Positions 1,626-37,993 of a stretch of 64,000 bases of DNA are shown piece after piece. The translations under genes and the position numbers were made by a program. The notes beneath the pieces are model-generated. The model had not been told where the DNA came from. It made no database searches and saw only the letters and a program-made list of their open reading frames with translations. Every line of letters starts with the position of its first letter. Position 1 is the first letter of the stretch. This DNA is from Granulosicoccaceae bacterium (GTDB lineage Bacteria > Pseudomonadota > Gammaproteobacteria > Granulosicoccales > Granulosicoccaceae), in the NCBI GenBank assembly GCA_020629835.1, contig JAHDCO010000005.1:2357-66356 (forward strand). Reading direction: 5' to 3'.

Positions 1626-2867
1626 ATGAGAAACACCGGTTACTACAGTCAGTTTGGCGGGGCATTCATCCCTGAAATTCTGGTACCGACCTTTGATGAA
1701 CTTGAGTCGGCTTACCTGGAGGCAAAAGATGATCCTGAGTTTTGGGCCGAGTATCTGGAACTGATGTCCACGTACTCGTGTCGGGCAACACCCATTACAC
1801 GTCTGGACAACTTGTCAGAGCAATTGGGCGGCGCTTCAATTTATGTGAAACGGGAAGATTTGAATCACACCGGAGCACACAAAGCCAACAATGTTATGGG
1901 GCAGGGTTTGTTAACCAAGCGTATGGGTAAGACTCGCGTCATTGCCGAAACGGGTGCGGGCCAGCACGGTGTAGCTACCGCTACTATGGCAGCCAAGTTT
2001 GGTTTTGATTGCACCATTTATATGGGCGCACACGATGTCGCTCGCCAACGACCCAACGTGTTTTGGATGGAACAAATGGGCGCAGAGGTTATTGCGGTTA
2101 CCGAAGGTAGCCAGACGCTCAAGGACGCGATTAATGAAGCGTTCCGTGATTGGGTAACCAATATGGACAACACCCATTACGCGTTAGGTACGGCCTGCGG
2201 CCCGCATCCATTTCCTGAGATGGTGTCCTGGTTTCAATCGGTTATTGGTACCGAAGCTCGCGGACAAATGTTGGAGCGCACCGGCAAGTTGCCATCCAAG
2301 GTGTACGCCTGTGTAGGCGGTGGTTCCAATGCCATGGGGCTGTTCAGTGGCTTCATGGATGATGAAGACGTTGAACTGGTAGGTGTAGAGGCCGGTGGCC
2401 GTGGGCGTGGCACCGGTCAGCATGCGGCGCGCCTGGCCTATGACGATGCGACCATTGGTGTGGCACAGGGTTACAAAACGTTCTTTTTGCAGGATCGCGA
2501 TGGTCAAATGCAGGATACGCACAGTGTCTCAGCCGGTTTGGATTACGTCGGTGTATCGCCGATTTTGAGCCATTTGTTTGAATCCAAGCGCGTGCGGTTT
2601 GAAGCGGCAACCGATGACGAAGTGGTTGCTGCCATGCAGCGTACGGTACGGCATGAAGGATTAATTCCGGCATTGGAATCCTCACACGCGTTTGCTCAAG
2701 CCTACGCAGAAGCGCCGAACTTATCAAAAGACGAAGACATTTTGATTAACATGTCCGGGCGCGCCGATAAAGACATCTTCACCGTGGCGGATGCCATTGA
2801 CGATCCCAAATGGCGGGAATTTATCATTGATAAAGCAAAAGGCTACCAACAGGGGATGAACCAATGA
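1626..2867 (+). CDS. trpB: Tryptophan synthase beta chain
   Basis: PLP enzyme that joins indole and serine to give tryptophan in the alpha2-beta2 complex. The 413-residue length is normal for TrpB. The PLP-lysine motif HTGAHKANN (K86), the catalytic glutamate in AETGAGQHG (E108), the GGGSNA phosphate loop, the SAGLDY segment and the NMSGRADKD motif near the C terminus are all present. The last reads GRADKD where most TrpB have GRGDKD, and the segment after SAGLDY is also divergent, so this may be a paralogue. It overlaps trpA by 4 bp (ATGA). No trpE, D, C or F is nearby; the pair stands alone behind a GntR regulator. Confidence 0.93.
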   Translation: MRNTGYYSQFGGAFIPEILVPTFDELESAYLEAKDDPEFWAEYLELMSTYSCRATPITRLDNLSEQLGGASIYVKREDLNHTGAHKANNVMGQGLLTKRMGKTRVIAETGAGQHGVATATMAAKFGFDCTIYMGAHDVARQRPNVFWMEQMGAEVIAVTEGSQTLKDAINEAFRDWVTNMDNTHYALGTACGPHPFPEMVSWFQSVIGTEARGQMLERTGKLPSKVYACVGGGSNAMGLFSGFMDDEDVELVGVEAGGRGRGTGQHAARLAYDDATIGVAQGYKTFFLQDRDGQMQDTHSVSAGLDYVGVSPILSHLFESKRVRFEAATDDEVVAAMQRTVRHEGLIPALESSHAFAQAYAEAPNLSKDEDILINMSGRADKDIFTVADAIDDPKWREFIIDKAKGYQQGMNQ

Positions 2868-3646
2868 GCCATTACCCAACAAAACTTGAAGATTCAATCA
2901 GAGCAGCGCGTGAGAAAAAAGACTTGCTGCTGATGACGCACATTGTGCTGGGCTACCCGAACTTTGATGACTCGCTACGCGTCGTTGAGGATATGGTCAA
3001 GGCGGGTGTGGATTTGATGGAATTGCAAATTCCTTTCTCTGAGCCTATGGCTGACGGGCCGGTTATCTTAAAAGCCAACTCGGAAGCGCTCAAAGCAGGC
3101 GCCACGGTGGATAAAAGCTTTGAAATAGCAGAGCGCATTACCAATGAATTCGATATACCGTTTTTATTCATGACGTACTACAACATCCTGTTCTGCACCG
3201 GCGTTAAAGAATTTGTACAACGTTGCAGCGATATCAACATTCAAGGTTGCATCGTGCCTGATTTGCCGCCGGCAGAAGGTCAGGAATATTTGGATGCCAT
3301 GAAAGCGCATCAATTAGCACCGGTGCACATCTTCACACCCAATACGCCAGAACCACGAATGCGTTTTCTGAGTGACAACAGCGCAGGGTTTATCTACTCC
3401 GTTGCCCGAAAAGGTGTAACGGGAAAAGATACCTCATTCAGTGATGAAACATCGAAATACCTGGCTACCTGCAAAGCATCCACCGATCTGCCACTCGCGG
3501 TGGGTTTTGGCGTTAAATCCAAAGACGATGTGGATTTCTTGCGCGGTAAAGCCGACATTGCTGTCGTAGGGTCTGAAACCATCCGAGTGATGGAACAAAA
3601 AGGTGTAGAAGGCGTACGACCATTTATCGAAACGTTGGTGGCGTAA
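2864..3646 (+). CDS. trpA: Tryptophan synthase alpha chain
   Basis: TIM-barrel subunit that cleaves indole-3-glycerol phosphate to indole, which is channelled to TrpB. At 260 residues it is full length. The catalytic acids are kept: E53 in LMELQIPFSEP and D64 in MADGP. The phosphate-binding segments ARKGVTG, VGFGVKS and VVGSE are also present, though the last usually reads SGSA. The start codon overlaps the trpB stop by 4 bp, so translation is coupled. Divergent motif spelling suggests a lineage apart from the main biosynthetic TrpA, but an active enzyme is likely. Confidence 0.92.
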   Translation: MSHYPTKLEDSIRAAREKKDLLLMTHIVLGYPNFDDSLRVVEDMVKAGVDLMELQIPFSEPMADGPVILKANSEALKAGATVDKSFEIAERITNEFDIPFLFMTYYNILFCTGVKEFVQRCSDINIQGCIVPDLPPAEGQEYLDAMKAHQLAPVHIFTPNTPEPRMRFLSDNSAGFIYSVARKGVTGKDTSFSDETSKYLATCKASTDLPLAVGFGVKSKDDVDFLRGKADIAVVGSETIRVMEQKGVEGVRPFIETLVA

Positions 3647-4346: not shown

Positions 4347-5450
4347 ATGGGTCCCTATCCACATCACGCAGGCGCATCATCCATCAGTGACGAAAACCCA
4401 GCCGGTACCGACGGCTTTGAATTCGTTGAGTTTGCACACCCAAACCCTGCGGAATTAGAAGCGTTATTCGAACGCATGGGTTACACCGAAGTAGCCCGGC
4501 ACAAACACAAAGATATCTCGCTGTATCGACAGGGGGAAATCAACTATCTACTCAACCGCGAACCCGGTTCGCACGCCGCCCAGTTTGTCGAAGCCCACGG
4601 CCCTTGTGCACCGTCGATGGCGTGGCGCGTGGTGGACGCGGCTCATGCGTTAAACCGTGCTGTAGAACTCGGTGCAACTGAATATACCGGCTCGGGTAAA
4701 TCTATCGATGCACCGGCCGTTTTTGGCATTGGTGACTCGCTGCTGTATTTCATTGAAACCGATCAAAGTGACACGTCATGTTATGACAAAGACTTCCAAT
4801 GGGTCGGCGAACGGGACCCAAAACCAGAAGGGGTTGGGTTTTACTACATCGACCACTTAACCCATAACGTACAGCGCGGCAACATGGATACGTGGTATCG
4901 CTTTTACGCCGAGACGTTTAACTTTAAGGAAATTCGTTTCTTTGATATTGAAGGCAAAGTCACGGGGCTGTTCAGTCGCGCTTTAACCTCACCGTGCGGA
5001 AAAATTCGCATACCCATCAATGAAAGTGCGGATGAGCATAGCCAGATTGAAGAGTACCTGAACGAATACCGTGGTGAGGGCATACAGCACATTGCGGTGG
5101 GTTCAAATGATCTTTACGACGCAGCTGACGCGATTGCCCTGCGTGGATTGGAGTTTATGCCCGGGCCTCCGGATACGTATTATCAGCAATCAACGCATCG
5201 CGTGGCCAATCATGAAGAACCGATTGAGCGCATGAAAAAGCACGGCATATTAATCGATGGCGAAGGTGTGGTGGATGGTGGTACCACGCGTATCCTGCTG
5301 CAGATATTTTCGAAAACCGTGATTGGCCCGATCTTCTTTGAATTCATACAACGAAAGGGCGACGATGGCTTCGGTGAAGGTAACTTTAAAGCCCTGTTTG
5401 AATCGATAGAAGCCGATCAGATTGATCGAGGGGTTTTGAAGGCGAGCTAG
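4347..5450 (+). CDS. hpd: 4-hydroxyphenylpyruvate dioxygenase
   Basis: Non-haem iron enzyme converting 4-hydroxyphenylpyruvate to homogentisate in tyrosine breakdown. The 367-residue protein has two vicinal-oxygen-chelate halves. The iron ligands are visible in the second half: H170 (YYIDHLTHNV), H248 (GIQHIAVGS) and E332 (PIFFEFIQRKGD). The start ATG follows a GAAGGA ribosome site. It is transcribed divergently from the Lrp-type regulator and converges on the Rieske operon. Homogentisate dioxygenase and later steps are not in the window. A related VOC dioxygenase with another substrate cannot be fully excluded. Confidence 0.92.
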   Translation: MGPYPHHAGASSISDENPAGTDGFEFVEFAHPNPAELEALFERMGYTEVARHKHKDISLYRQGEINYLLNREPGSHAAQFVEAHGPCAPSMAWRVVDAAHALNRAVELGATEYTGSGKSIDAPAVFGIGDSLLYFIETDQSDTSCYDKDFQWVGERDPKPEGVGFYYIDHLTHNVQRGNMDTWYRFYAETFNFKEIRFFDIEGKVTGLFSRALTSPCGKIRIPINESADEHSQIEEYLNEYRGEGIQHIAVGSNDLYDAADAIALRGLEFMPGPPDTYYQQSTHRVANHEEPIERMKKHGILIDGEGVVDGGTTRILLQIFSKTVIGPIFFEFIQRKGDDGFGEGNFKALFESIEADQIDRGVLKAS

Positions 5451-5518: not shown

Positions 5519-6676
5519 TTAGGCTGTGTTTCGTTCGTGATTCGAACGATCGGTACCCGCGTCTCCCAATAAACGCTTACTCATGTAGTGATAAAAATCC
5601 CACACCGTACCTTCTAGGTCCGGTGGCGCTAAAAATCCGCGGTCCGCGTAGCGGGACGACAGTCCCTTTTGCACATCCATTAATCGCTCGCGGTCTTCTG
5701 CATTAAACGATACGGCAAAGTCAAAGCGATTTTTTGCTTCACCGGATTCAAACGTTTCTTGCCGAGCGATAACATCCCAGCGAACTTGAAGATCGGTTGG
5801 GCCGGTTGGGCTGATGCTCATGTAAACGGCAGAGTTAGGCGATAAGGCGACAACAAATCCTGGGTATACCCAAACCATCATCGATATACGCGCTTCTTCT
5901 TCGGTCATGTCCGGGTGGATTTCCGTTCGGCCGTCATAGTTCTCGTTGTAGTGGGCTTTATAACCGGTGTAGCCGTCGCCACCGGGGATTTTTTCGCACA
6001 AGCGTGTAGGGCACATCGGGTGAAGCGTTTTGAGATGCACCGGTGTGAGGTGATAACCCTCCATAAAATTCTCGGCTAAACACTTCCAGTTCAGCGGCCA
6101 ATGCTCGGTTGTGGGCTCAACCGAGCGCATCTCTTCGGCGTGGTAGTTTTTTACGTATTGATTTGCGCCTCGAATGGATTCTTCGAATTCGCCGGCTTTA
6201 CCGCTTAAATTAACAAACACCCAGCCAAACCAAACGTGTGTGCGGAAGTTAGGAAGTGCACAGCGTTTTCGGTCAAAGCCTTCCGTTTTATCAACTAAGG
6301 GCGCGGCCAGAAGTTTTCCATCAAAGTCATAAGACCAGCGATGGTACGGGCAGGTGATGCGTTTGTTGTTACCACGACCCGTCAGGAGCTGGCTACCACG
6401 ATGACGGCAAACGTTGGATAAAACCACCACCTGGTCTTCTTTGTTTCGAGTAACAATCAGTGGTTCACCCAGCAGCTCGAGTGTGTAGAAATCACCTTCT
6501 TCAGGTACTTCGTCGGCGCGGCCAACACACAACCAACCGTTCAAAAACACAGCTTCGGTTTCTTGTTCCAGCATTGCCTCGTCTTTGTAAAACGACGGCG
6601 GCATGCTCATGGGAACAGCATCCGGGTTGTGGTGCAACTCGTTCAACGCTTCGTAGGTATCGTTTGGTAGTGTCAT
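5519..6676 (-). CDS. Rieske 2Fe-2S oxygenase alpha subunit (second of tandem pair)
   Basis: A 385-residue ring-hydroxylating-type oxygenase alpha subunit. The Rieske cluster ligands are C90-x-H92 (NVCRHRGS) and C109-x2-H112 (CPYHRWSYDFDG). The mononuclear iron site is in NWKCLAENFMEGYHLTPVH (H209, H214). The residue between the two sites is glutamate (E206), as in the carnitine and glycine-betaine type oxygenases, rather than the aspartate of naphthalene-type enzymes. Its start overlaps the end of the upstream Rieske gene by 4 bp. No ferredoxin or reductase gene is adjacent. The substrate is unknown. Confidence 0.88.
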   Translation of the reverse strand: MTLPNDTYEALNELHHNPDAVPMSMPPSFYKDEAMLEQETEAVFLNGWLCVGRADEVPEEGDFYTLELLGEPLIVTRNKEDQVVVLSNVCRHRGSQLLTGRGNNKRITCPYHRWSYDFDGKLLAAPLVDKTEGFDRKRCALPNFRTHVWFGWVFVNLSGKAGEFEESIRGANQYVKNYHAEEMRSVEPTTEHWPLNWKCLAENFMEGYHLTPVHLKTLHPMCPTRLCEKIPGGDGYTGYKAHYNENYDGRTEIHPDMTEEEARISMMVWVYPGFVVALSPNSAVYMSISPTGPTDLQVRWDVIARQETFESGEAKNRFDFAVSFNAEDRERLMDVQKGLSSRYADRGFLAPPDLEGTVWDFYHYMSKRLLGDAGTDRSNHERNTA

Positions 6677-7824
6677 AGCCGTCTCTCGCTAAGATGCAAC
6701 GCGTGTGCAACGCGTGACGCCAGATATTGGGCGAAATCGTAGTTTGGTCGTTCTAAGTGTGAAAGGGGGCCGGGCGTTGCCATACTGGAACACAAACCTT
6801 TGTACACTTTTTGGGTACAGCCTTTGTCTTCAACGTTGACATCGTCCAACAAATTTTTCAGTGCATCAAAATGTTGTTGTGCGGACGGATCGTCCATGAA
6901 CTCCTTAGCCATCCCGCCGCCGTACTGGATATGAACTTCTCCCACACCGGCAGGATGTAAAGAGAGATACCAGAAGTAACCGGGAGTGAGCGTAATCATC
7001 AAACTGGGATAGATAGCAAATAGGTACGTGGTTCGTCGGCGCTCCCCTTGCATACGCGTGTTGTTTGGATGCGCTACCGCAATGGCCAGAGACTCATCCT
7101 TTAAAATTGTGTGGTAGTTAAAGGCATCGTGGCCGGGCGGACAAATCATATCTTCCAGCTTTGACAAACCACCCACCGTACTGCGGTGACACACCGGTAA
7201 GTGATAGCTTTCCATAAAGTTTTCAGCTAACACTTTCCAATTCGTGTTCCATTGGTGGGTTTCAAAAAAAGTCTGTTCGTAATCTGCCATGTTGTAGTCG
7301 GCCACCATGGCCTCCACCTCGGCCAACTGCTCAGAGACCGGTGGGGCTTCGGGGTTTAGCGTGATCATGATCCAACCTAACCACTCTTCACAACGAACCG
7401 CAGGCAGACGCATACCGTCTTTGCAAAATGCTTTGTTCTCTCCCATCGCTGGCGCGCCGCGTAAATTGCCATTAAGTTCATATGTCCACGCGTGATAGGG
7501 GCACACAATGGCGTTGGTTTTCCCGCGCCCTTCCAGCAGGGTGGACATGCGGTGAAGGCACACATTGGATTGAGCACGTAATACACCCGCTTTATCGCGA
7601 ATGACCATGATCGGTTGGCCGGCGAGTTCCAGAGTCAAATATTCACCGGGTTCTGCTAAGGACGACGCTCGGCCCGCGCAGAACCATTCTTTGGAGAAGA
7701 TGCTGTCAATTTCAGCTTTCAAAAACTCGTCTGACGTGTACACACTGCGTGGCATAGCGTGCGCTTCATCAAACGGCGTAGCCGCGTTGGCAAGCAGTTC
7801 CTGGACAGGATTCATCACCGTCAC
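6673..7824 (-). CDS. Rieske 2Fe-2S oxygenase alpha subunit (first of tandem pair)
   Basis: A 383-residue paralogue of the next gene. The Rieske ligands are C89-x-H91 (NVCLHRMS) and C108-x2-H111 (CPYHAWTYELNG). The catalytic iron motif is NWKVLAENFMESYHLPVCH, with E205 at the bridging position and H208 and H213 as ligands. Two alpha-type subunits translated in a coupled pair are unusual, since classical systems pair alpha with a small beta subunit. They may form a hetero-oligomer or act on successive groups of one substrate. The aminotransferase 131 bp upstream in the same direction suggests one transcription unit. Confidence 0.88.
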   Translation of the reverse strand: MTVMNPVQELLANAATPFDEAHAMPRSVYTSDEFLKAEIDSIFSKEWFCAGRASSLAEPGEYLTLELAGQPIMVIRDKAGVLRAQSNVCLHRMSTLLEGRGKTNAIVCPYHAWTYELNGNLRGAPAMGENKAFCKDGMRLPAVRCEEWLGWIMITLNPEAPPVSEQLAEVEAMVADYNMADYEQTFFETHQWNTNWKVLAENFMESYHLPVCHRSTVGGLSKLEDMICPPGHDAFNYHTILKDESLAIAVAHPNNTRMQGERRRTTYLFAIYPSLMITLTPGYFWYLSLHPAGVGEVHIQYGGGMAKEFMDDPSAQQHFDALKNLLDDVNVEDKGCTQKVYKGLCSSMATPGPLSHLERPNYDFAQYLASRVAHALHLSERRL

Positions 7825-7955: not shown

Positions 7956-9143
7956 CTAGCGTGAAAAGGCCACCGCTAAGCGCTCAAACGCGGTTTGCAG
8001 GATGTCTGTAGGTTGGGCATAACACAACCTCATATACCCTTGACCGGCCGGTCCAAAGGCATCCCCAGGTGCCAAACCTACACCGGTCTTGCGAAGGATT
8101 TCCTTGGCGGTGGCAACGCTATCAACCATCCCGTCCACCTTGAAAAAGGCGTAGAACGCACCGTCGGGCTCAATAAACTGCACGCTCGGGAACGCGCGAA
8201 GCGACTTCTCGGTCAGGGTGTAGGCATCTTGCAGACGCTGGTTTAACACATCAATTTCTGAGTCTCCCAGCGCTAGCGCAGCCACGCCGGCATCCTGCAC
8301 AAAGCCGGGGGTGCATGAGGTGTTGAATTCAGTGAGTTGAGCCAGTCGTCTTTCGCACTCAGGTGGTGACACCATCCACCCCAACCGCCAGCCGGTCATT
8401 GACCAGCTTTTGGAAAACGAATTAATGGATATAAACCGATCACGTTCATCGGTGATGGATAAAAACGCTGGCGCGTGAATGGCGTGCTTGTATAACCTGG
8501 AATACACATCGTCGCTGACGATCCAGATTCCGTGCTTCCGGCAATGTGCTAACACGGTCGCTTGCTCATCGAGTGACATCGTCCAACCTGTTGGATTGTT
8601 GGGCGAATTAACCACAAATACTTTGGTCAACGGAGTCAGCGCGTCGAGCAGGGTGTTCATGTCTAGTGACCATCGGCCCTCATTGGGCTGCAGTGTGACC
8701 CCGGTTACCGTCGCGCCCATGGCCTTGTAGCACTCCATTAGGTTGGGCCACAGCGGTTCAACGAACACAACCCGATCGCCGGGTGTTACCAATAACTCAG
8801 CACTCAACGTAACCGCTTGCATACCCGATGGCGTAACGGTTATGCGGTTTTTCGAAATTGCTGTGCCATACACCCGATAGTGATAATCGACTAAACCTTG
8901 GCGTAAAGAAGGCCTGCCGCTGTTCGCCTGATAAAAGTGAACGCCGGATTGCAGCGACCGAACGGCTGCGTCAACGATACTGGGGTGTGTTGGCCATGAG
9001 CCTTCACCGAACCACAGGGCGATAACATCCGGGTCTCCAATGGCTAAATTGGCCACCTCACGAATCTTCGAGCCGGTGAGTGTCTGCGCACGTTCAGACA
9101 GCGACTCCATGATGGGGTTAGCTTCCATTCGGTCAGGCGTCAT
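7956..9143 (-). CDS. Class I/II pyridoxal-phosphate aminotransferase
   Basis: A 395-residue fold-type I aminotransferase of the aspartate aminotransferase superfamily. The PLP lysine is K245 in SFSKSWSMTGWRLGW. NSPNNPTGW (about 179-187) and SDDVYSRL with the PLP-pyridine aspartate are also present. It moves an amino group between an amino acid and a 2-oxo acid; the exact pair cannot be read. Its start lies inside the end of the FCD-type regulator gene (11-bp overlap), so the two are co-transcribed. The position next to HPPD and oxygenases suits deamination of an aromatic amino acid, by inference. Confidence 0.88.
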   Translation of the reverse strand: MTPDRMEANPIMESLSERAQTLTGSKIREVANLAIGDPDVIALWFGEGSWPTHPSIVDAAVRSLQSGVHFYQANSGRPSLRQGLVDYHYRVYGTAISKNRITVTPSGMQAVTLSAELLVTPGDRVVFVEPLWPNLMECYKAMGATVTGVTLQPNEGRWSLDMNTLLDALTPLTKVFVVNSPNNPTGWTMSLDEQATVLAHCRKHGIWIVSDDVYSRLYKHAIHAPAFLSITDERDRFISINSFSKSWSMTGWRLGWMVSPPECERRLAQLTEFNTSCTPGFVQDAGVAALALGDSEIDVLNQRLQDAYTLTEKSLRAFPSVQFIEPDGAFYAFFKVDGMVDSVATAKEILRKTGVGLAPGDAFGPAGQGYMRLCYAQPTDILQTAFERLAVAFSR

Positions 9144-9855
9144 CTGCCACTACAACTCGAAGATACTCCCAGGCTGCATGCAAGTGTGTAGACAAGGCTG
9201 CCTCCGCGGCATCTGGGTCTCTATCCACAATGGCTTCGAATATGGACTCATGGCTTCGATAGTTGACGTAGTTTCTGTCCGGAGATCGAATCATTTTGTC
9301 CCAATGAGGTGCAAGCCAGCTTTGATAAGCGGAATTCAGTGCGGGGAAAATGGGGTTGTTTGGTATGTCATACAGTACGGAGTGAAACGCCATGTCGGAG
9401 GCGTAAAAAGACTGAGCGTCATCAATGCAGGCTTTGTTGTCTTTTAAGGCCGAAGCCAAGGCATCAATATCGGCTTTACGTGCCTGCGTCGCAGCATCAC
9501 GTACCAACATCCTTTCAACGAAGATACGAGTCTCGTACATCGATTTCACGCCCTGTGCCTCTTTCAGGAAGTGATCTGCAAGGCCATTGGTGGCGTCGAT
9601 GAAAGAGGATACCGTTGGCTTTCTAACCACCGGGCGAAACCGCGGGCGGTTCTCGATTAAGCCGCGACTGGTCAAGTGCGTGATGGCTTCCCTGACGACG
9701 GTACGGCTCGCACCGAACTGCGCCATCAATTCTCGTTCTGCCGGTAAGGGCTCCCCGTCAATCAGTTCCCCAGTACGAATCTTTTTCTCAAGGGATCGTA
9801 CGATCAGATCGGATGCTCTTACGCCAACGACGGGCTTATTTAGATCTAACGCCAT
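9133..9855 (-). CDS. GntR family (FadR/FCD subfamily) transcriptional regulator
   Basis: An N-terminal GntR winged helix (LPAERELMAQF and ASRTVVREAITHL) is followed by an all-helical FCD ligand domain, with metal-site-like residues in MAFHSVLYD and NYRSHESIFEAI. I choose the ATG at 9855 (240 residues). A GTG at 9924 would extend the protein by 23 residues without family resemblance and would cover the intergenic operator. The gene is divergent from the enolase-superfamily gene and overlaps the aminotransferase gene, so it probably controls both sides. FCD regulators commonly respond to organic or sugar acids. Confidence 0.9.
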   Translation of the reverse strand: MALDLNKPVVGVRASDLIVRSLEKKIRTGELIDGEPLPAERELMAQFGASRTVVREAITHLTSRGLIENRPRFRPVVRKPTVSSFIDATNGLADHFLKEAQGVKSMYETRIFVERMLVRDAATQARKADIDALASALKDNKACIDDAQSFYASDMAFHSVLYDIPNNPIFPALNSAYQSWLAPHWDKMIRSPDRNYVNYRSHESIFEAIVDRDPDAAEAALSTHLHAAWEYLRVVVADDA

Positions 9856-9902
9856 GTATTGTCGAAATCTACAGGGATTTTGATTGTGGGAATTTTCATT
9901 TG

Positions 9903-9914
9903 GTATAACAATAC
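9903..9914. promoter_or_regulatory. Possible GntR/FCD operator
   Basis: GTAT-AACA-ATAC is a short inverted repeat in the 98-bp region between the divergent regulator and enolase-type genes. GT...AC half sites are typical of GntR operators. The arms are only 4 bp, so this is a weak call that rests on position. Confidence 0.3.
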
Positions 9915-9953
9915 AGTAAGTCACCTGTCCATTCCAATCGGCTAAGTCACTGC

Positions 9954-11066
9954 ATGACCGTCATCACAAGCATCCGCACACAGCACTTCCTTTTGCCGTT
10001 AGCCGAAGTCCTAACCGACGCAAAGCACGGTGATCACACGCATTTTGAGCTCATCACGACCACGATCGAAACCGATTCTGGTATCACGGGGACGGGCTAT
10101 ACCTACACGGGAGGCCGCGGCGGACAGGCCATCGCCAATCTGATCGAGGTGGATTTGGCCCCAACTTTAGTCGGTCAAGACGCCAGTGAGATTGACCGTC
10201 TGTACGACGGCATGCAATGGCATGTGCACTATGTCGCTCGCGGTGGTATTGCATCATTTGCTATATCCGCGCTGGATATCGCGCTGTGGGATATCCGTGG
10301 GAAACAACGGAATCAACCCTTGCATCAAATGGCTGGCGCAGGTGGGGACAGGTGCAACGCCTATCGCGGCGGTATAGATTTGAATTTCCCGCTTCCGAAA
10401 TTATTGGCCTCCATTGAAGGTTACTTGGATGAAGGATTCAACGGCGTGAAAATCAAAGTCGGTCAAGCCGTGTTGGACGACGACATTAAACGAGTAAACG
10501 CGGTACGAGATTTAGTGGGGCCGAACACCGCATTTATGGTTGACGCAAATTACGCGTTTGATGTGCCCACGGCAATTAAAGCGGCGCAGGCGTTTTCAGA
10601 CGTTAACCCGCTGTGGTTTGAAGAGCCAATCATTCCAGACAACTACGCAGGATTTGCCCAAATTGCCGATGCGACCGGTTGCCCGTTAGCCATGGGTGAG
10701 AACCTGCATACCGAATACGAATTTGGCTACGCCGTTGAGCAAGCAAAACTCAGTTTCCTACAGCCGGATGCGTCCAATTGTGGTGGTATCACCGGTTGGC
10801 TTCGTGCGGCCGCTTTGTCATCAGCGGCTGGCATTCCCGTGTGCAGCCACGGTATGCAGGAACTGCATGTAAGCCTCGTCTCTGCACAGCCTTGCGATGG
10901 TTGGTTGGAAGTGCACGCATTTCCGATTGACACTTACACCCATCGACCCTTGGTCATTGAAAACCACCAGGCGGTTGCACCGAATACACCCGGCACCGGT
11001 GTTGAATTCGATTGGGAAAAGCTTGCGGCGTTTAGTGAGAGCCGTTATCAATCACCCATGGGTTAG
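9954..11066 (+). CDS. Mandelate racemase / muconate lactonizing enzyme family protein
   Basis: A 370-residue enolase-superfamily enzyme with the full set of residues of the mandelate racemase subgroup: the K-x-K motif K166/K168 (VKIKVG), metal ligands D197 (VDANYAF), E223 (WFEEP) and E249 (GEN), the catalytic His in SHGMQELH (H299), and E319 (LEVHAF). Such enzymes abstract the alpha proton of a carboxylate and usually dehydrate sugar acids or racemise. It is the divergent partner of the FCD regulator. The substrate cannot be named from sequence. Confidence 0.9.
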
Positions 11067-14312: not shown

Positions 14313-15584
14313 ATGTTGAAAGAACGCGTTGACACGGTCGTCATTGGAGCGGGTCAAGCCGGTATCGCGATGAGCGAACATCTTGGTCAGCAAGGTATCG
14401 AGCATGTGGTTTTGGAACGTGCTCGAGTGGCAGAACGATGGCGCACAGAGCGCTGGGATTCCTTAGTAATGAACGGGCCTGCGTGGCACGATCGCTTTCC
14501 CACGCTGTCTTTTGAATCAGACCCGAATGGTTTTCCGTCCAAGGACGAAGTGGTAGCGTATTTTGAGCGCTACGCTGAACACATCAAGTCACCGTTGCAC
14601 TGCGGGGTTGAGGTTACCGAAGTCACCCATCAGGGTGGGCAAGCGCGCTTTTTGGTAAAAACCAGCCAGGGCAATGTGCAAGCTAACAATGTCGTAGCAG
14701 CCACCGGCGCGTTTCAACAACCGGTCATTCCTCCGGTTGTTCCCGAGTGGCCGTCGCTCACACAACTTCATTCAAACCATTACAAAAACCCGAAGCAGCT
14801 ACCAGAGGGTGCGGTGCTGGTGATTGGTGCCGGTTCGTCCGGTTCGCAGATTGCCGATGAGCTGAACCAACAGGGGCGTCAGGTGTATTTGTCGGTGGGC
14901 CCCCATGATAGGCCGCCGCGTTCCTATCGCGGTAGAGATTTTGTGTGGTGGCTGGGCGTATTAGGCAAATGGGATGCAGCAACGGTTGATCCTGGCACTG
15001 AACACGTCACCATCGCGGTCAGTGGGGCTGACGGTGGCAGAACGATTGATTTTCGTCGCCTCGCGCATGAGGGCATCACCTTACTCGGCATGACCCAAAC
15101 GTTTGACGATGGCACCTTAACGTTCGCCGATGATTTGAACAGCAACCTGGAGCGGGGCGACAGTAACTACTTATCGGTACTACAGGAAGCGGACGCTTAT
15201 GTTCAGCGGCAAGGTTTGGATTTGCCTGAAGAACCTGAAGCGCATGAGTTTTTAGAAAAGCCAAGTTGTGTCACTCAACCGATTCATCGGTTGAATCTAC
15301 AGCAAGCAAACATCAACAGCATCATCTGGGCAACCGGATACAAAAGCGATTACAGTTGGCTAAAACTTGATGCGTTTGATCAGAACAACCAACCCAAGCA
15401 TCAACGTGGTGTAACGGCCGAGACGGGATTTTATTTTTTGGGCCTACCGTGGCAATCGCGCCGAGGCTCCTCCTTCATTTGGGGCGTTTGGCATGACGCC
15501 AAATACATTGCGGATCAAATAGGCATTCAGCACCACTATCTGGCCTATCACGAAGCCATGTCCCAACCCAAAAACTCGGTATAA
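14313..15584 (+). CDS. Flavin-containing monooxygenase-like protein
   Basis: A 423-residue flavoprotein with two Rossmann motifs: FAD-binding VVIGAGQAGIAMSEH (residues 8-22) and NADPH-binding VLVIGAGSSGSQIAD (about 168-182). IIWATGYKSDYSWL near residue 345 is the usual class B flavin monooxygenase ATG motif. It belongs to the group often labelled CzcO-like flavoproteins. RidA and DUF1028 genes follow closely (43 and 15 bp gaps), so the three probably form an operon. Oxidation of an amine, with RidA clearing a reactive imine, is my inference. Confidence 0.85.
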   Translation: MLKERVDTVVIGAGQAGIAMSEHLGQQGIEHVVLERARVAERWRTERWDSLVMNGPAWHDRFPTLSFESDPNGFPSKDEVVAYFERYAEHIKSPLHCGVEVTEVTHQGGQARFLVKTSQGNVQANNVVAATGAFQQPVIPPVVPEWPSLTQLHSNHYKNPKQLPEGAVLVIGAGSSGSQIADELNQQGRQVYLSVGPHDRPPRSYRGRDFVWWLGVLGKWDAATVDPGTEHVTIAVSGADGGRTIDFRRLAHEGITLLGMTQTFDDGTLTFADDLNSNLERGDSNYLSVLQEADAYVQRQGLDLPEEPEAHEFLEKPSCVTQPIHRLNLQQANINSIIWATGYKSDYSWLKLDAFDQNNQPKHQRGVTAETGFYFLGLPWQSRRGSSFIWGVWHDAKYIADQIGIQHHYLAYHEAMSQPKNSV

Positions 15585-15627: not shown

Positions 15628-16044
15628 ATGATTCATACACGAATTCGCACGTTCAATACTCAGGACACATACCCCGAACAAAATCTGGACAACGACCTAT
15701 GCCAGGCGGTTGTCACGCACGGGGGAAAAACGGTGTGGATGCGCGGCCAGTGCCCGCAAAGTTTGGATACAGCTGAATCCATAGACAGTCATGATCCGGT
15801 GGAGCAAACTCATAAAGTCATGCAGAACATTCAGCAGCTCATTGAAGAGGCGGGTGGCAACATGGAACACCTGGTTAAAGTTGTGGTGTACATAACGGAT
15901 GTGCGGCATCGGGAATCGGTGTATCGCACGATGGGTGAATACCTAAAAGGCGTTTATCCGGTGTCCACCGGTTTAGTCGTAAACGCGTTAGCACGGCCTG
16001 AGTGGTTGGTAGAAATAGACGCCACCGCCGTTATTCCCGATTAA
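15628..16044 (+). CDS. RidA family protein
   Basis: A 138-residue member of the YjgF/YER057c/UK114 family, small trimeric proteins that hydrolyse reactive enamines and imines in the cytosol. Family features are the QAVVTHGGKTVWMRGQ strand, THKVMQNIQQLIEEAGG, VVVYITDVRHRESVYRTM and the C-terminal ARPEWLVEIDATAVI. The arginine in NALARP is at the usual active-site position. It lies between the FMO-like and DUF1028 genes, an arrangement that suggests a dedicated amine or imine catabolic step. Confidence 0.92.
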   Translation: MIHTRIRTFNTQDTYPEQNLDNDLCQAVVTHGGKTVWMRGQCPQSLDTAESIDSHDPVEQTHKVMQNIQQLIEEAGGNMEHLVKVVVYITDVRHRESVYRTMGEYLKGVYPVSTGLVVNALARPEWLVEIDATAVIPD

Positions 16045-16059
16045 CAAAGAGACCAAGTC

Positions 16060-16737
16060 ATGACCTTCTCTGTGGTTGCGCGCTGCGCTGAAACCGGTGC
16101 CTTCGGCGTAGCCATTAGCTCGTCTTCACCGGCTGTGGCTGCACGCTGTTCATACGCCCAAGCGGGTATTGGCGCTGTCGCCAGTCAAAACGTCACGGAC
16201 CCGACGCTGGGGCCTGCGACTTTACGCGCCATGGCAGAAGGTAAAACCGCTACCAACGCGGTTGAGCATGTGCGTGATGGGCATGCGTTTATGGAGTACC
16301 GTCAATTGCTGGCGGTCGATAAACACGGTGGTACGGCCATCCATTCAGGCCCGAATTCATTGGGTATCTGGACACAAGCACAAAGCACCGATGTGGCCTG
16401 CGGGGGAAATTTGCTCGACAACCTGGATGTGCCGGAGGCTATGGTGGAAGCCTTTGTGGGTTCTGCAGGCTCATTAGGTGATCGATTGGTGCTGACGCTA
16501 AAAGCCGGCCTGGACGCGGGTGGTGAAGCAGGGCCTGTGCATTCCGCTGGTTTAAAGCTGGTGGATACGGTGGCCTGGCCAGTCGCTGATTTACGCATAG
16601 ACTGGAGCGATGACTGCCCAATTGAAGGTTTAGAGGCCTTGTGGCAGCGCTACAAGCCGCAGATGGATGATTATGTGCTGAGGGCTCTGGACCCCAGCCG
16701 GGCGCCTTCTTACGGGGTTGCCGGCGACGAAAATTGA
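16060..16737 (+). CDS. DUF1028 domain-containing protein
   Basis: A 225-residue protein with the DUF1028 opening TFSVVARCAETGAFGVAISS, then QAGIGAVASQNVTDPTLGP and NSLGIWTQAQSTDVACGGNLL. The family is predicted to have an Ntn-hydrolase-like fold and is often found with RidA proteins and amine or amino-acid catabolism genes, but its reaction is not known. It is the last gene of the FMO-RidA-DUF1028 cluster, 15 bp after RidA. Confidence 0.9.
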   Translation: MTFSVVARCAETGAFGVAISSSSPAVAARCSYAQAGIGAVASQNVTDPTLGPATLRAMAEGKTATNAVEHVRDGHAFMEYRQLLAVDKHGGTAIHSGPNSLGIWTQAQSTDVACGGNLLDNLDVPEAMVEAFVGSAGSLGDRLVLTLKAGLDAGGEAGPVHSAGLKLVDTVAWPVADLRIDWSDDCPIEGLEALWQRYKPQMDDYVLRALDPSRAPSYGVAGDEN

Positions 16738-20434: not shown

Positions 20435-22948
20435 TTACAGTGCTTCACCAGCCATGTCGGACAGCTTATCCTGAATAGGCCCCAAGGCCGGTTGGATAAT
20501 CTCGCCTACCCCTGGAATAGCCGTTACCTTTTCGATGATTGGGTTCAAACCCTCTGAGCCTTTTGACACAATCTCGGTGAGCGTGCCACGCGCACCATCG
20601 GGTACGTTGTTCATCATGTCGCCAAGGCCACTAAGGCTACCGCCCAGTTCTCCTAATTTTGGCAACGCAGCGGTTGCACCTGCGGTATCGGTGATACTGC
20701 CTAACGTATCACCTGCGTCGCTAAAAAAACCGCTCAACTGATCGGCAACTGCTTGAGCCTCCACACTGTCTACTGCAGTAGCAGTTGCTGTGGACTCTGC
20801 CGCTTCGTCGCCTCCGTTGCTTAGCGCTTTGAAACCCAGCCAGCCTAATAACAGTAAAACAAGCAGAGGCAGAAGGATCTTAAGCAAACTGCTGCTGCTT
20901 TTTTGTGGGTCTTTTGCGTCCGAAGCCGGGTTCGCTGTGTCAGTCGAGTTTGAAGCCTCTACCGCGTCACCGCCGTTGGCGGTTGTAATGGAGTGGTCCA
21001 CGTTCGTGTCGACGAACTCCGTGTCCTTCTCGACTCGCGTTTGCACAATTTCTTTTGCATCACCGTCTATTGCATCGCCGACACGATCCGAGGCGTTTTC
21101 GACGATTCCGGATACCGAATCCTTGGTGGATTGATAAGCATCTCGGGTTGTCGATTCGATCCCACCCAGTCTTTCAGTAGCACCGTTGGCCATATCCTGA
21201 ACCGTATCGGTAGCCGCGTTAAGTGAATCACCTGCAGCGTCAAGTGCGTGACTTGTTTTGTCACTGACAGCCGAAGCTGCATCACTTGCATAATCTGATG
21301 CACTTCTGGCAACGTCAGACGCGGCCTCAGAGCCGGACTCGAGGGAGCTTGTCACAGCATCAGATGCCGAATCGTAAGCGTCGCCAGTGGCATCGGTAAC
21401 TGAGTCAGATACATTCACGAGACCGTCCTTGAGATTGCCCACAGCTTCGCCAGCATCATCAACGCGAGCTGACATCGTATCGGTTGCAGATTGAAATGCA
21501 GAATCAGCGCTGTCCACTGTGCTGGAAACCACGCCCGCTACATCGTCTTTTATTCCGCTAAACCCTTCACTGATACCAGAAACCGTACTACCCGCGGTCT
21601 CTTTAGCATTGGTAAGCCCGTCAGTGATGTCAGAAACCGAATCACCAGAAGTCTCTTTGACCTTACCAAGCACATCGGGAATTTCTAAAACGTCATCGCT
21701 TGAGGCATCGTAAACATTTCTAAGGCCATTGCTCGTGTCAGAAAACGCTTCTTTAGTACTGCCGGTAATAGAATCCACAACACCGTTAGCGCTGGCAGCT
21801 GCTCCCGCGGTCAATCCGTTTGAGACGTCAGCGATGCCACTGACAGAGCTTTCCACGGAATCAGACGCTGAGGCAAAAGAAGAACTGGCAAATTCTGACG
21901 TGTTATCTGCTAACTCATCAACGTTGCTTGCCGCACCATCAATCGTATTCGATGTAACTTCTTCGACTGAATCGTATGTAGAACTTGCTGTATCGCTAAC
22001 GTTACTGAGTTCGTTGGCGACACCGTCAAACCTGTCATCCACTGATTCAGATAAAGGTTCATAAGTTGAAGGTGCAGAATCGTTGTGGGCGTTGACATCA
22101 CCGATAGACAGATCGCTATCGTCTGAGATAACCTGAAAATTATCAGTCACGTCGGGGTGTAGTTGACGCACGGAATCATCTCGATCTTCAATACTGGCTG
22201 AAGCAGTTGCCGCAATCTTTTCAACGCCAGTCTCTGCAGAGGATGTAGCCTCAGAAGTGCGGCTACTGGTAGCTGCAGCTAAACCCGCTGCACCTATCAC
22301 AGCGCCTGCGCTTGCACCCGCGGCTGCACCTGTTACCGCACCAGTACTTGCACCCGCAACTGCACCCGCACTTGTTGGCATGCCGGTCATGCCACCAGGA
22401 AAGTTCGATAAAAATCCAGAGGAGGCGAACTGATTCGACAGGCCGGCAGGCATGGCACTGGCGATGTTGTCTTTCTGATTCATTAACAAGTTGGCAACGC
22501 CACCCGCGTCGAGCCGATTGCCAAAAATTTTACGTTTTATTACCCCTAGTACAATTGGAGTAAGTATCCCTAGAAGGGAACCAGAACCACTTTTGTTGAT
22601 ACCTGAAACGGTTGAGATCATGTCCTGAAGATTGGACATCCCATTGCCGCCAAGTAGAGAAGTCATTAGTCCTGTTCCCTTGTCGGCTAGCGCGGCACCC
22701 TGGCCACCATTCATCAGCCCGCCCAAATTATCGAGTAAACCATCCTGTTGCTCATGGATAGCGACGAATAGTTTCCCAGCGTTTTCTTTGGTGGTTGTGC
22801 TGTTCCGCAAACCCTCTAGTAGTGCAGGAATCGCGTTATCTATACCTGCGGACACCTTGGATGAGTCATCGCCTAACAATCCGCCGATTTGGCCCTGAAG
22901 AGATTCGCCTATCTGGCTTCTAACCAGATCTACCAGGTTAAATAACAT
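20435..22948 (-). CDS. Long DUF937 protein with low-complexity repeats and C-terminal TM anchor
   Basis: 837 residues in four parts. Residues 1-180 are a DUF937 domain (MLFNLVDLVRSQIGESLQGQ, GLLGDDSSKVSAGIDNAIPALLEGL). A short Ala/Gly/Thr-rich hinge follows. Residues about 235-680 form a long acidic Ser/Ala/Asp/Thr-rich stretch with degenerate repeats such as SVSDITDGL, YASDAASAVSDKTSHALDAAG and DSVSGIVENASDRVGDAI, reminiscent of LEA-type helical proteins. A TM helix is at about 688-709 (LLKILLPLLVLLLLGWLGF). A 128-residue C-terminal domain follows, rich in Gly, Leu and Asp. No classical signal peptide is seen. The role is unknown; stress protection or envelope association is possible. Confidence 0.8.
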   Translation of the reverse strand: MLFNLVDLVRSQIGESLQGQIGGLLGDDSSKVSAGIDNAIPALLEGLRNSTTTKENAGKLFVAIHEQQDGLLDNLGGLMNGGQGAALADKGTGLMTSLLGGNGMSNLQDMISTVSGINKSGSGSLLGILTPIVLGVIKRKIFGNRLDAGGVANLLMNQKDNIASAMPAGLSNQFASSGFLSNFPGGMTGMPTSAGAVAGASTGAVTGAAAGASAGAVIGAAGLAAATSSRTSEATSSAETGVEKIAATASASIEDRDDSVRQLHPDVTDNFQVISDDSDLSIGDVNAHNDSAPSTYEPLSESVDDRFDGVANELSNVSDTASSTYDSVEEVTSNTIDGAASNVDELADNTSEFASSSFASASDSVESSVSGIADVSNGLTAGAAASANGVVDSITGSTKEAFSDTSNGLRNVYDASSDDVLEIPDVLGKVKETSGDSVSDITDGLTNAKETAGSTVSGISEGFSGIKDDVAGVVSSTVDSADSAFQSATDTMSARVDDAGEAVGNLKDGLVNVSDSVTDATGDAYDSASDAVTSSLESGSEAASDVARSASDYASDAASAVSDKTSHALDAAGDSLNAATDTVQDMANGATERLGGIESTTRDAYQSTKDSVSGIVENASDRVGDAIDGDAKEIVQTRVEKDTEFVDTNVDHSITTANGGDAVEASNSTDTANPASDAKDPQKSSSSLLKILLPLLVLLLLGWLGFKALSNGGDEAAESTATATAVDSVEAQAVADQLSGFFSDAGDTLGSITDTAGATAALPKLGELGGSLSGLGDMMNNVPDGARGTLTEIVSKGSEGLNPIIEKVTAIPGVGEIIQPALGPIQDKLSDMAGEAL

Positions 22949-33428: not shown

Positions 33429-34565
33429 ATGAAAAAATTAGGCATTGCCTTGCTGGTATCGGGCTTAACGGCCCTATCATCCGTGGCACAGGCTGAGGTA
33501 AAAGTCGGCATGATCACCACCTTATCCGGTGGCGGCGCTGGCCTTGGCATCGATGTTCGGGATGGATTTATGTTGGCGATCAACCAGTCCGGCCGCGATG
33601 ACATCACTGTGGTCATCGAAGATGATCAGCGCAAACCCGATATCGCCGTGCAGCTCGCCGACAAGATGGTTCAGTCAGAAAAGGTTGATGTGCTGACGGG
33701 GATTATCTGGTCTAACCTGGCCATGGCAGTCGTGCCTTCGGTTACCGCTCAAGGTAAATTCTATTTATCACCGAATGCAGGCCCATCCGCGCTTGCTGGC
33801 AAAGGTTGCCATCCCAACTACTTTAATGTGGCCTGGCAGAACGATAACCTGCACGAAGCCGCCGGTGCCTACGCCAACGGAGCCGAATACAAGAACAGTT
33901 TCATTCTCGCTCCCAACTACCCGGCGGGAAAAGACGCATTAACCGGCTACAAGCGGTTTTTTGAAGGCGACTTAGCGGGTGAACTCTACACCCAGCTTGG
34001 ACAAACAGACTACGCCGCTGAAATTGCACAAATTCGTGCATCGGATGCCGACAGCGTGTTCTTCTTCCTTCCGGGTGGAATGGGTATCGCGTTCTTAAAG
34101 CAATTAGCCGATTCAGGTATCGACCTGCCGGTCATAGGGCCTGCGTTTTCGTTCGATCAGGGCATCTTACAAGCGGTGGGTGCAGCGGCTCTGGGTGTCG
34201 TCAATACCTCGCAGTGGAATAAAGACATCGAAAACGATACCAACGCAGCATTCGTTGAAAGCTTCCAGGCTGAGTACGGTCGCTTACCGTCACTGTACGC
34301 CAGCCAAGGCTTTGATACGGCCAACTTGCTGATCTCAGCGATAGACTCTGCCGATGTCGCCGATGCCGATGCGTTCCGGGCGGCGCTAAAAGCGGCTGAT
34401 TTCTCCAGTACGCGTGGTGACTTTGCATTTGGTAGTAACCACCATCCGGTACAGACTATTTACGCACGCAAAGTCATACAAGAAGGTGATGTGTTTACGA
34501 ACGAAATCATAGCGCCCGCTTTGGAAAACCACTCGGATGCGTACGCTGCTGAATGCAGCATGTAA
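33429..34565 (+). CDS. ABC transporter substrate-binding protein (branched-chain amino acid type)
   Basis: A 378-residue periplasmic protein with a signal peptide ending LSSVAQA (cleavage after residue 22). A type I periplasmic-binding fold follows: VGMITTLSGGGAGLGIDVRDG, then KPDIAVQLADKMV and TGIIWSNLAMAV. It is the first gene of a five-gene LIV-type transporter. The ligand is not readable; amino acids, amides or aromatic acids are all seen in this family. The start has a GAGGAGA ribosome site. A stem-loop follows it before the permease genes. Confidence 0.92.
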   Translation: MKKLGIALLVSGLTALSSVAQAEVKVGMITTLSGGGAGLGIDVRDGFMLAINQSGRDDITVVIEDDQRKPDIAVQLADKMVQSEKVDVLTGIIWSNLAMAVVPSVTAQGKFYLSPNAGPSALAGKGCHPNYFNVAWQNDNLHEAAGAYANGAEYKNSFILAPNYPAGKDALTGYKRFFEGDLAGELYTQLGQTDYAAEIAQIRASDADSVFFFLPGGMGIAFLKQLADSGIDLPVIGPAFSFDQGILQAVGAAALGVVNTSQWNKDIENDTNAAFVESFQAEYGRLPSLYASQGFDTANLLISAIDSADVADADAFRAALKAADFSSTRGDFAFGSNHHPVQTIYARKVIQEGDVFTNEIIAPALENHSDAYAAECSM

Positions 34566-34586
34566 CTCGCTAAGTATCTTAAGTGC

Positions 34587-34616
34587 AGAGGCCGTCTTCG
34601 GACGGCCTCTTGTGGT
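34587..34616 (+). terminator. UUCG-loop hairpin between binding protein and permeases
   Basis: AGAGGCCGTC (34587-34596), loop TTCG, then GACGGCCTCT (34601-34610), followed by TGTGGTTTTT. The perfect 10-bp stem with a UUCG tetraloop suits partial termination or 3'-end protection, leaving the binding protein in excess over the membrane subunits. Confidence 0.8.
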
Positions 34617-34655
34617 TTTTGAACCCGTACAAAACGGGTTTGCCAGGGCAGGGTT

Positions 34656-35576
34656 ATGTCGTTTGTTCTGATTGCCGAACAAGTACTCAATGGCTTGCAA
34701 TTCGGCATCATGTTATTTCTGATGGCCGCTGGACTAACGTTAATTTTTGGCGTTATGGGCCTGATCAACTTAGCGCATGGTTCGCTCTACATGGTCGGTG
34801 CCTTCGCGGCTGCAGCAACCGCTGCGGCCACAGGTTCCTATATGGCCGCGCTCATCGCTGCCTTAGCGGCGGCAGCCATCGCAGGCGCTTTGGTCGAGAT
34901 TCTCATCATCCGCAGGCTCTATGACAAGGATCATCTGGATCAAGTACTCGCAACGTTCGCCTTGATCCTGATTTTCTCTGAAGGTACCCGCTGGGTATTC
35001 GGTTCGTTCCCTCTGTACTTGAACATACCGAGTTATTGGTCGGGTCCGGTTACTCTCCCCGGTGATATTCAATACCCGCTTTATCGTCTGGTGTTGATTG
35101 CTATTGGCTTAGCGGTGGCTGCCGGCTTGGGTTTGCTGATTCATAAGACTCGTCTCGGTGTGCAGATTCGTGCCGGTGAGAACGATCGGGAAATGATTGC
35201 GGCACTGGGTGTGGATATTTCCAAGCTCTACACGATTGTCTTTGCCTTAGGTGCAGCTTTAGCCGGGTTGGCCGGTGCCTTGGTGGGCGCGATTCAATCG
35301 GTGCAGGTGGGCATGGGAGAGCCGGTGTTGATATTAGCCTTCGTGGTTATTGTTATCGGCGGTATCGGCTCGATCAAAGGGGCCCTGGTGGGCGGATTGT
35401 TGGTTGGCCTCACCGATAAGTTAGGCGGTGTGTTCTTGCCCAAGCTGCTGACGCTCTTCACCGACACGGCTACGGCATCTACGCTGGGCTCATCGCTGGC
35501 ATCCGTCGCGATTTACGTTCTTATGGGATGCGTTCTGATCTGGAGGCCTACCGGCCTTTTCGGTGCGAAGGCATGA
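34656..35576 (+). CDS. Branched-chain amino acid ABC transporter permease (LivH-like)
   Basis: A 306-residue polytopic permease with LNGLQFGIMLFLMAAGLTL, the family N-terminal segment, then FGVMGLINLAHGSLYMVGA. The cytoplasmic coupling region is IRAGENDREMIAALGVDISKLY. About eight TM helices. It is 90 bp after the binding-protein gene and overlaps the LivM-like gene by 4 bp. Confidence 0.93.
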   Translation: MSFVLIAEQVLNGLQFGIMLFLMAAGLTLIFGVMGLINLAHGSLYMVGAFAAAATAAATGSYMAALIAALAAAAIAGALVEILIIRRLYDKDHLDQVLATFALILIFSEGTRWVFGSFPLYLNIPSYWSGPVTLPGDIQYPLYRLVLIAIGLAVAAGLGLLIHKTRLGVQIRAGENDREMIAALGVDISKLYTIVFALGAALAGLAGALVGAIQSVQVGMGEPVLILAFVVIVIGGIGSIKGALVGGLLVGLTDKLGGVFLPKLLTLFTDTATASTLGSSLASVAIYVLMGCVLIWRPTGLFGAKA

Positions 35577-37310: not shown

Positions 37311-37993
37311 GCCTGCTGAACGTTGTGGGTTTATCCGCTTCATACGGCACCAGTCAGGCGCTGTATGACGTGAATCTAAGCATTGACGAGGGGGAAGTCG
37401 TCGCCCTGATGGGCCGCAATGGCATGGGCAAAAGCACAACAGTGAGTTGCATTTGCCGCTTACTTCCATCGGCTGGAACGCTCGAATTCAATCATCAGAA
37501 CTTACATAAATTGCGAAGCTTTCAGTCCGCTCGTCTGGGCATTGGCTTAGTACCCGAAGGTCGCCGATGCTTTGCCGATTTAACCGTTTCCGAAAACCTC
37601 ATCGCATCGGCGCGTCCGGGTCACTGGACGCTAAATTCGGTGACTGAATTGTTCCCACGCTTGGGCGAAAGGGAAAACCAGTTAGCAGCGTCCTTGTCTG
37701 GCGGCGAGCAGCAAATGCTGTCGATAGCGCGGGCATTAATGACTAACCCTCGTTTACTTATTTTGGACGAAGCCACAGAAGGCCTGGCACCATTGGTACG
37801 CCAGGAAATTTGGGCGGCGATTTCATCACTTAAATCAAAATCCGGCTTGTCGATTTTAGTGATAGATAAAACCTTAAAAGAACTGAGTGTGGTGTGCGAT
37901 AAGCTCAGCATATTAGAGCGTGGTAGTACCGTATGGTCTGGCAAGTTTGATGAACTATCGGCTGAGGTGACTGCGGACTATCTGTGTATTTGA
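37307..37993 (+). CDS. ABC transporter ATP-binding protein (LivF-like)
   Basis: A 228-residue second ATPase subunit of the LIV-type transporter. Walker A is GRNGMGKST, the LivF-typical VPEGRRCFADLTVSENL follows, then signature LSGGEQQMLSIARAL and Walker B LLILDEATEGLAP. The switch histidine of most LivF (LVEQN/H) is replaced by DKTLKEL, which is slightly unusual. The start GTG at 37307 overlaps the previous stop. This ends the operon. Confidence 0.93.
   Translation: MSLLNVVGLSASYGTSQALYDVNLSIDEGEVVALMGRNGMGKSTTVSCICRLLPSAGTLEFNHQNLHKLRSFQSARLGIGLVPEGRRCFADLTVSENLIASARPGHWTLNSVTELFPRLGERENQLAASLSGGEQQMLSIARALMTNPRLLILDEATEGLAPLVRQEIWAAISSLKSKSGLSILVIDKTLKELSVVCDKLSILERGSTVWSGKFDELSAEVTADYLCI

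Follow-up and report, generated by a model that had tools for sequence, protein, structure and literature searches.

Among the described Rieske oxygenases, those closest to the proteins considered here are CntA/YeaW (group Va) and the stachydrine demethylase Stc2, which is GbcA-like (group Vb), both listed as alpha3 in a published structure table. In CntA the glutamate E205 carries electrons between subunits, and the passages of PMC7948474 that deal with it report all E205 mutants of that study as inactive, E205D and E205Q likewise, while an excerpt of PMC10952381 places a Cys-X-X-Cys pair in both CntA and Stc2. A more distant system, the methylxanthine demethylases NdmA and NdmB, uses two alpha-type Rieske oxygenases together, in an oligomer given as alpha3-alpha'3 in passages of PMC12445004 and PMC10380055. 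Here we analyse a tandem of two Rieske oxygenase genes, A (upstream) and B (downstream), in a 64,000-nucleotide stretch of a Granulosicoccaceae genome (the window; G000:C63:2357-66356, where G, C and L numbers are our handles for genomes, contigs and loci); the genome scanned measures 4.34 Mb and is 97% complete. The new finding is that A and B form a conserved, partner-exchanging Rieske pair, the A half of which belongs to a widespread, little-studied catabolic cluster.

Gene A (6673-7824, minus strand) encodes 383 amino acids from a GTG start, and gene B (5519-6676, minus strand) encodes 385 from an ATG start. A preliminary description of this DNA had given a 4-bp overlap between them, which is indeed present, the start codon of B sharing ATGA with the stop of A at a junction that reads ...CGGCTATGACACTA. 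It had also taken both proteins for alpha-type subunits, and this too was borne out: both are complete, lie far over the Pfam cut-offs for Rieske (PF00355) and Ring_hydroxyl_A (PF00848), and have the Rieske motif and the two His plus carboxylate of a Rieske non-haem iron oxygenase alpha subunit. Across 30 A-family and 24 B-family aligned sequences, both Rieske Cys/His pairs (C-x-H, C-x-x-H), the two Fe-binding His and the third-ligand Glu-Asp are invariant.

The bridging residue lies in the motif AENFMESYH in A (E205; codon at 7210-7212, minus strand) and AENFMEGYH in B (E206; codon at 6059-6061, minus strand). Both align with CntA E205, and the same column holds Asp in NdoB, HcaE and the pWW0 benzoate/toluate enzyme, in agreement with the earlier claim of a Glu where naphthalene-type enzymes have Asp. 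This Glu is invariant in the 30 aligned A-family sequences and present in all 78 distinct A-type genes (at least 58% identity), each with the motif FMES, as well as in 29 of the 31 distinct B-type genes (at least 36% identity), where the motif is FMEG in 28, FMDG in two and FMEA in one. The two Asp-bearing proteins (ENFMDGYH), otherwise complete, occupy the B slot of the genus genomes G375 and G385 (L132, L133), and their natural Asp contrasts with the inactivation of CntA by Glu-to-Asp exchange reported in the passages cited above. Since Glu at the bridge is also carried by remote relatives of unknown function (L080, L149), it is by itself no proof of group V. The signature of clade Va, an aromatic residue two positions before the Glu (Tyr203 in CntA), is found as Phe in 78/78 A-type and 31/31 B-type genes, whereas Stc2 has Asn; NdoB and HcaE also have Phe there, across a one-residue gap, and the signature is therefore non-discriminating. 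The Cys-X-X-Cys beside the iron that some group V members have is absent from both proteins, these positions being S/L in A and G/L in B. Two further Rieske oxygenases of the genome (L138 on C57, L139 on C7) combine Glu with Cys-X-X-Cys, as do CntA and Stc2.

CntA was the best match in the PDB by sequence (E 3e-37 for A, 1e-38 for B), with all listed arene dioxygenases behind it, and also by fold. The predicted fold of A (predicted local distance difference test score, pLDDT, 92.5) matches CntA with Z 39.4 and a root-mean-square deviation (rmsd) of 2.1 over 347 aligned residues, followed by Stc2 (Z 37.5) and biphenyl dioxygenase (Z 36.7, the best arene enzyme); Foldseek ranks CntA, 3n0q and Stc2 at the top for A. 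That of B (pLDDT 87.6) matches CntA with Z 37.6 (rmsd 2.2, 346 aligned) and Stc2 with Z 37.4, with biphenyl and toluene dioxygenase at Z 36.0 each. On the GbcA model NF058607, A and B score 148.5 and 138.1 bits, close to the proven CntA (YeaW; 154.3), higher than each of three proven arene dioxygenases (107.8, 117.3 and 122.0), but far from Stc2 (498.5); as the curated cut-off is 670 bits, neither protein qualifies as GbcA. A beta subunit (Ring_hydroxyl_B, PF00866) had no match in the 97% complete genome, a further likeness to CntA. The bridging Glu, the predicted folds, the GbcA-model scores and this missing beta-subunit match together link A and B to the CntA/GbcA/Stc2 side. The likeness has its bounds: identity to CntA in the fold alignments is 24-27%, and A and B, unlike CntA, are in tandem, have no Cys-X-X-Cys and have no CntB-type reductase adjacent, whereas the Stc2 locus has a GbcB-like reductase directly downstream.

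Conservation of the pairing was followed in a genus set of 27 genomes, with A counted at an identity of at least 73%. A is present in 12 of these, remote A-like genes (42-45%) in two more, and a second Rieske gene directly follows A in 10 of the 12; G390 has no second Rieske gene in the 5.7 kb downstream of A, and the contig of G391 stops within A. Eight of the ten pairs have a window-type B (the window and seven at 67-79%), and six of these eight preserve the ATGA overlap, the other two having gaps of 12 and 14 bp. In the remaining two pairs (G375, G385) B lies outside the window-type clade, at 40-41%, and has Asp. The genes around the pair vary between genus genomes. Outside the genus B is rare, with just this genome and G190 (43%) retrieved from 369 class genomes at E 1e-80. 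In GTDB, 60 contigs with A at an identity of at least 58% were collected (one of them, L001, an uncultured Granulosicoccaceae metagenome-assembled genome and the nearest named relative for A, is taken to be the genus genome G380); the contig scan used the best 80 of 588 matches, and its counts are no census. Thirteen of the 60, L001 included, carry a B-family gene, at -8 to 4396 bp from A.

In a tree of 70 rows picked from 139 sequences plus references, window A falls in a 9-row genus clade (99/97) within a 20-row A clade (100/100), and window B falls in a 6-row genus clade (100/100). Seven Rhodobacterales-type B partners form a clade of their own (98/100) apart from window B, and the Zavarzinia B partner groups with other B relatives (99/98). 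That A has been paired repeatedly, and with B genes of separate lineages, points to a functional link between the two; the pairing is real and the B partner exchangeable. Another proteobacterium (L078, 4353-6699) has a different tandem, in which both Rieske alpha-type genes are at 30-32% to B.

Orthologues of A in Rhodobacterales and Burkholderiales are often found beside genes for a flavin monooxygenase, RidA, a DUF1028 protein, ArgE and LysR, which is the second new observation. On annotated plasmids of Rhodobacterales and Caballeronia, A stands beside an NAD(P)/FAD-dependent oxidoreductase, RidA, DUF1028, LysR and an acetylornithine-deacetylase-like ArgE; a Parasedimentitalea plasmid has A without that partner set. 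Partners were labelled by tblastn with plasmid-encoded proteins as queries. Among the seven of 22 listed plasmids with A at an identity of at least 57%, two of which had supplied the queries, DUF1028, LysR, RidA, ArgE and the monooxygenase are each present in six. On the 60 GTDB contigs, within the stretch examined, DUF1028 was labelled in 29, LysR in 28, RidA in 27, ArgE in 22 and the monooxygenase in 16, and at least three partners occur on 25. Neither RidA nor DUF1028 was found among 10 loci of A paralogues at 34-38% and seven B-like loci without A; DUF1028 is thus near A in 35/67 loci against 0/17 comparison loci (Fisher p 4e-5, relatedness ignored). RidA together with DUF1028 is found in 4/11 loci of A paralogues at 41-48%. 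In two loci (L120, L121; G371, G372) DUF1028 and RidA flank a remote A paralogue (42-45%), and the flavin monooxygenase label is missing. A "DMGDH-like" label near A on 8/60 contigs was set aside, its query being a 163-amino-acid piece of a FAD-dependent oxidoreductase with no NCBIfam model.

The window itself has three of these partners, 6.5 kb away from A and encoded on the opposite strand. The flavin-dependent monooxygenase-like protein (14313-15584, plus strand) is TIGR04046-like but below the cut-off (395 against 498 bits), is 62% identical to the Caballeronia plasmid protein beside A, and resembles single-component flavin monooxygenases, its nearest solved structures being flavin monooxygenases. 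It is followed by a RidA-family protein (15628-16044, plus strand), above the cut-off for PF01042 and at 61 against 106 bits for NCBIfam, and by a DUF1028 protein (16060-16737, plus strand; PF06267), for which no NCBIfam model matched; a literature search gave no match for the term DUF1028. Within the genus set the monooxygenase (at least 60% identity) accompanies A in 12/12 genomes and occurs in 7/15 genomes without A (Fisher p 0.003, relatedness ignored).

The preliminary description had noted the lack of an adjacent reductase, and we find the same: the neighbours of the pair are a 4-hydroxyphenylpyruvate dioxygenase (HPPD), an aminotransferase, a GntR regulator and an enolase-superfamily protein. 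Three matches to the ferredoxin-NADP reductase (FNR) type (PF00175) were found in the genome. From their own sequences and neighbours, the first is read as PaaE, while the third is assigned, by the gene order known for such operons, to a dimethylamine-monooxygenase-like operon (L137, G000:C57 81-88 kb); NqrF is a guess for the second, from the length of its frame alone. This third reductase (about 83.7-84.7 kb on C57) shares 43% identity with E. coli YeaX (CntB) over 303 amino acids, compared with 25% for PaaE. It is the sole CntB-like reductase found in the genome and the leading candidate for the predicted electron partner of A and B. Of the 11 Fer2 matches in the genome, five fall in frames of 113-160 amino acids. 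With three reductases as tblastn queries across the loci searched, one A locus matched (L084), there beside another Rieske gene, and a dedicated adjacent reductase was therefore rejected. About 5 kb from the dimethylamine-type genes, L211 holds an alpha chain (46%, 999 amino acids) and a delta chain (38%, 84 amino acids) like those of sarcosine oxidase or N-methylglutamate dehydrogenase, and this pair could be sarcosine oxidase instead of N-methylglutamate dehydrogenase.

Taken as a whole, the proposal that we consider evenly poised is that A and B are catalytically complete, beta-less, CntA/Stc2-like oxygenases that jointly degrade an N-methylated quaternary nitrogen compound. They would be made from one presumed transcript with coupled translation, and electrons would pass from the [2Fe-2S] cluster of one subunit through the bridging Glu to the non-haem iron of its neighbour. 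Both enzymes would oxidise the compound within one pathway, with A making the first O2-dependent attack, the flavin monooxygenase, the ArgE-type amidohydrolase, RidA and DUF1028 next opening or trimming the product to an intermediate at the level of an amino acid, and B either carrying out another oxidation, by N-demethylation or a further hydroxylation, or widening the substrate range. The reductase would be encoded elsewhere and probably shared, with the CntB-like enzyme on C57 in the lead. A Rieske oxygenase, a flavin monooxygenase, an amidohydrolase and an imine/enamine hydrolase (RidA) would together suit a route in which an N-methylated ring or a betaine is opened oxidatively and an N-acyl or N-formyl group is then lost.

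An N-methylated natural product is the probable substrate of the A cluster. It may be homarine (N-methylpicolinate), a marine metabolite that would be converted into N-methylglutamate. As a claim on its own, homarine is the favoured substrate but falls somewhat short of an even chance. The alpha chain of L211, like that of sarcosine oxidase or N-methylglutamate dehydrogenase, would suit an N-methyl amino acid as product. A citing passage in PMC13390433 credits Ferrer-Gonzalez et al. (2026, Nat Microbiol, doi 10.1038/s41564-026-02313-7) with a conserved homarine pathway in marine bacteria in which N-methylglutamate dehydrogenase takes part, and an excerpt of PMC12817926 states that Ruegeria pomeroyi takes up homarine quickly. 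The homarine operon is reportedly named homABCDER, with five enzymes and a regulator, and yields N-methylglutamate; these six genes equal in number the set of Rieske oxygenase, monooxygenase, RidA, DUF1028, ArgE and LysR, to which B would be an additional, second Rieske gene. Our literature search gave no match for the term homABCDER.

Several findings weigh against this proposal. On 23/60 A contigs no core partner was found, several of these contigs having full 10-kb flanks. The monooxygenase and DUF1028 are also present in genus genomes that lack A, so this module is not tied to A alone. In the window's own genome the best ArgE-like gene lies on another contig, away from the pair, and the LysR label was not found in the 20 kb examined around it. 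The cluster ArgE passes the cut-off for an ordinary acetylornithine deacetylase, so that it is a guess to let it act on an intermediate with an N-formyl or N-acyl group. Four of the 60 A loci lie near hut genes (L045, L050, L058, and L028 with HutI alone), a setting that would fit an imidazole or histidine betaine as substrate, and A is also found on Burkholderiales plasmids, some from soil, with no obvious homarine niche. The free tree groups the CntA/Stc2 rows with the arene rows and leaves A and B apart (93/96), on long branches, and approximately unbiased (AU) tests reject none of the groupings of A/B with CntA/Stc2 (p 0.472), with arene enzymes (p 0.32) or alone (p 0.472). The deep phylogeny leaves membership of group V unproven, and it is a "quaternary-ammonium-like" resemblance that the alignments and modelled folds support. 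The assignment of the preliminary description to the carnitine/glycine-betaine group was upheld as far as Glu, fold, GbcA scores and the missing beta match go; membership of group V is unproven, given the tree, the AU tests, the missing Cys-X-X-Cys and the Glu of remote relatives.

The strongest rival, which we think unlikely though it deserves serious attention, holds that A and B act in succession as N-demethylases on the betaine of an amino acid (that of histidine, hydroxyproline or the like), so that two different N-methyl groups are lost as formaldehyde, one to each enzyme. The hut genes near A would fit such a substrate, and so would two B-family loci. On a Rhodobacteraceae plasmid (L085, 8917-14573), a B-family Rieske gene lies by genes for a FAD oxidoreductase, an aldehyde dehydrogenase, a dihydrodipicolinate-synthase-family protein and GntR, which we read as a set for hydroxyproline breakdown, with the Rieske protein as a candidate hydroxyproline-betaine demethylase; L086 has a B-like gene by hut genes and S-(hydroxymethyl)glutathione dehydrogenase. 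In these plasmid examples, however, the stretch shown has the B-like gene but no A. The caffeine demethylases NdmA/NdmB offer a precedent in their mixed hexamer, according to the same passages as above, but NdmA is a remote fold match (Z 20.7 for A) and that system has a dedicated reductase, NdmD. The flavin monooxygenase and ArgE-type amidohydrolase that recur with A would moreover be superfluous for plain demethylation.

It is improbable, in our judgement, that A and B share an operon while acting on different substrates, with the overlap serving co-regulation only. The stretches examined of 47/60 A contigs have no B-family gene, different B lineages fill the B slot and B-family genes are also seen without A, all of which would be expected from separate substrates; against this, the second Rieske gene is kept behind A in those 10 of 12 genus genomes despite changing surroundings, with the ATGA overlap retained in most window-type pairs. 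A bolder form of joint action has a similarly low chance of being right: A and B would form a CntA-like alpha3-alpha'3 hexamer for the two-step oxidation of an N-methylated pyridinium such as homarine, with the intermediate retained, and the B lineages, one with a bridging Asp, would have been recruited separately. To our knowledge, and in a published structure table, no such mixed hexamer is known in the CntA-like branch.

That A and B are ring-hydroxylating arene dioxygenases is very improbable: the AU test leaves that grouping standing and the Z scores of biphenyl and toluene dioxygenase are merely 1.6-2.8 under those of CntA, but the bridge is Glu not Asp and the genome has no beta-subunit match, on which grounds we rejected this reading, and the pair also has a shorter chain, no adjacent ferredoxin or reductase and a place outside the separate arene clade (100/100) of HcaE, NdoB and the pWW0 enzyme (annotated benA, presumably XylX). 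The outcome named beforehand as refuting, a place for both proteins inside a clade of proven arene dioxygenases, thus did not occur in the phylogeny with CntA, Stc2 and arene references. We give equally little credence to a part in aromatic amino acid breakdown, for which the HPPD gene (4347-5450; above its model cut-off, 68 bp from B) and the aminotransferase preceding A would speak, since the HPPD gene and B are in convergent orientation and the nine other labelled genus A-B loci (L111-L119) gave no HPPD label.

As for the other neighbours, the aminotransferase gene (7956-9143, minus strand; pyridoxal-phosphate-dependent, PRK06108 above cut-off) leaves a gap of 131 bp upstream of A and is possibly co-transcribed with it; G376 and G387 have homologues (58-61%) at a distance of 4-5 kb from A, unlike the other labelled genus loci. 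A GntR/FCD gene (9133-9924, minus strand), which overlaps the aminotransferase gene, is a candidate regulator, and an enolase-superfamily gene (9954-11066) is divergent. The HPPD gene also adjoins an Lrp/AsnC regulator. Further off, a trpB-trpA pair behind a GntR/UTRA regulator (1626-3646; trpB and trpA above NCBIfam cut-offs) likewise adjoins the A-B pair in G376. The window also holds an 837-amino-acid protein (20435-22948) with an N-terminal DUF937 and a weak, sub-cut-off apolipoprotein-like part, and a branched-chain-amino-acid-type ATP-binding cassette (ABC) transporter (33429-37993; binding protein, two permeases, two ATPases).

A defines a beta-less Rieske lineage that extends across Burkholderiales, marine Rhodobacterales and gammaproteobacteria of the Granulosicoccaceae type; its recurrent partners include a domain of unknown function, DUF1028. 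The paired genes are a test case for two CntA-type alpha chains working together, and the B relatives with a natural Asp are a test of the reported rule that Glu-to-Asp exchange kills CntA. The substrate of A, once known, would identify a path that dissolved organic nitrogen takes.

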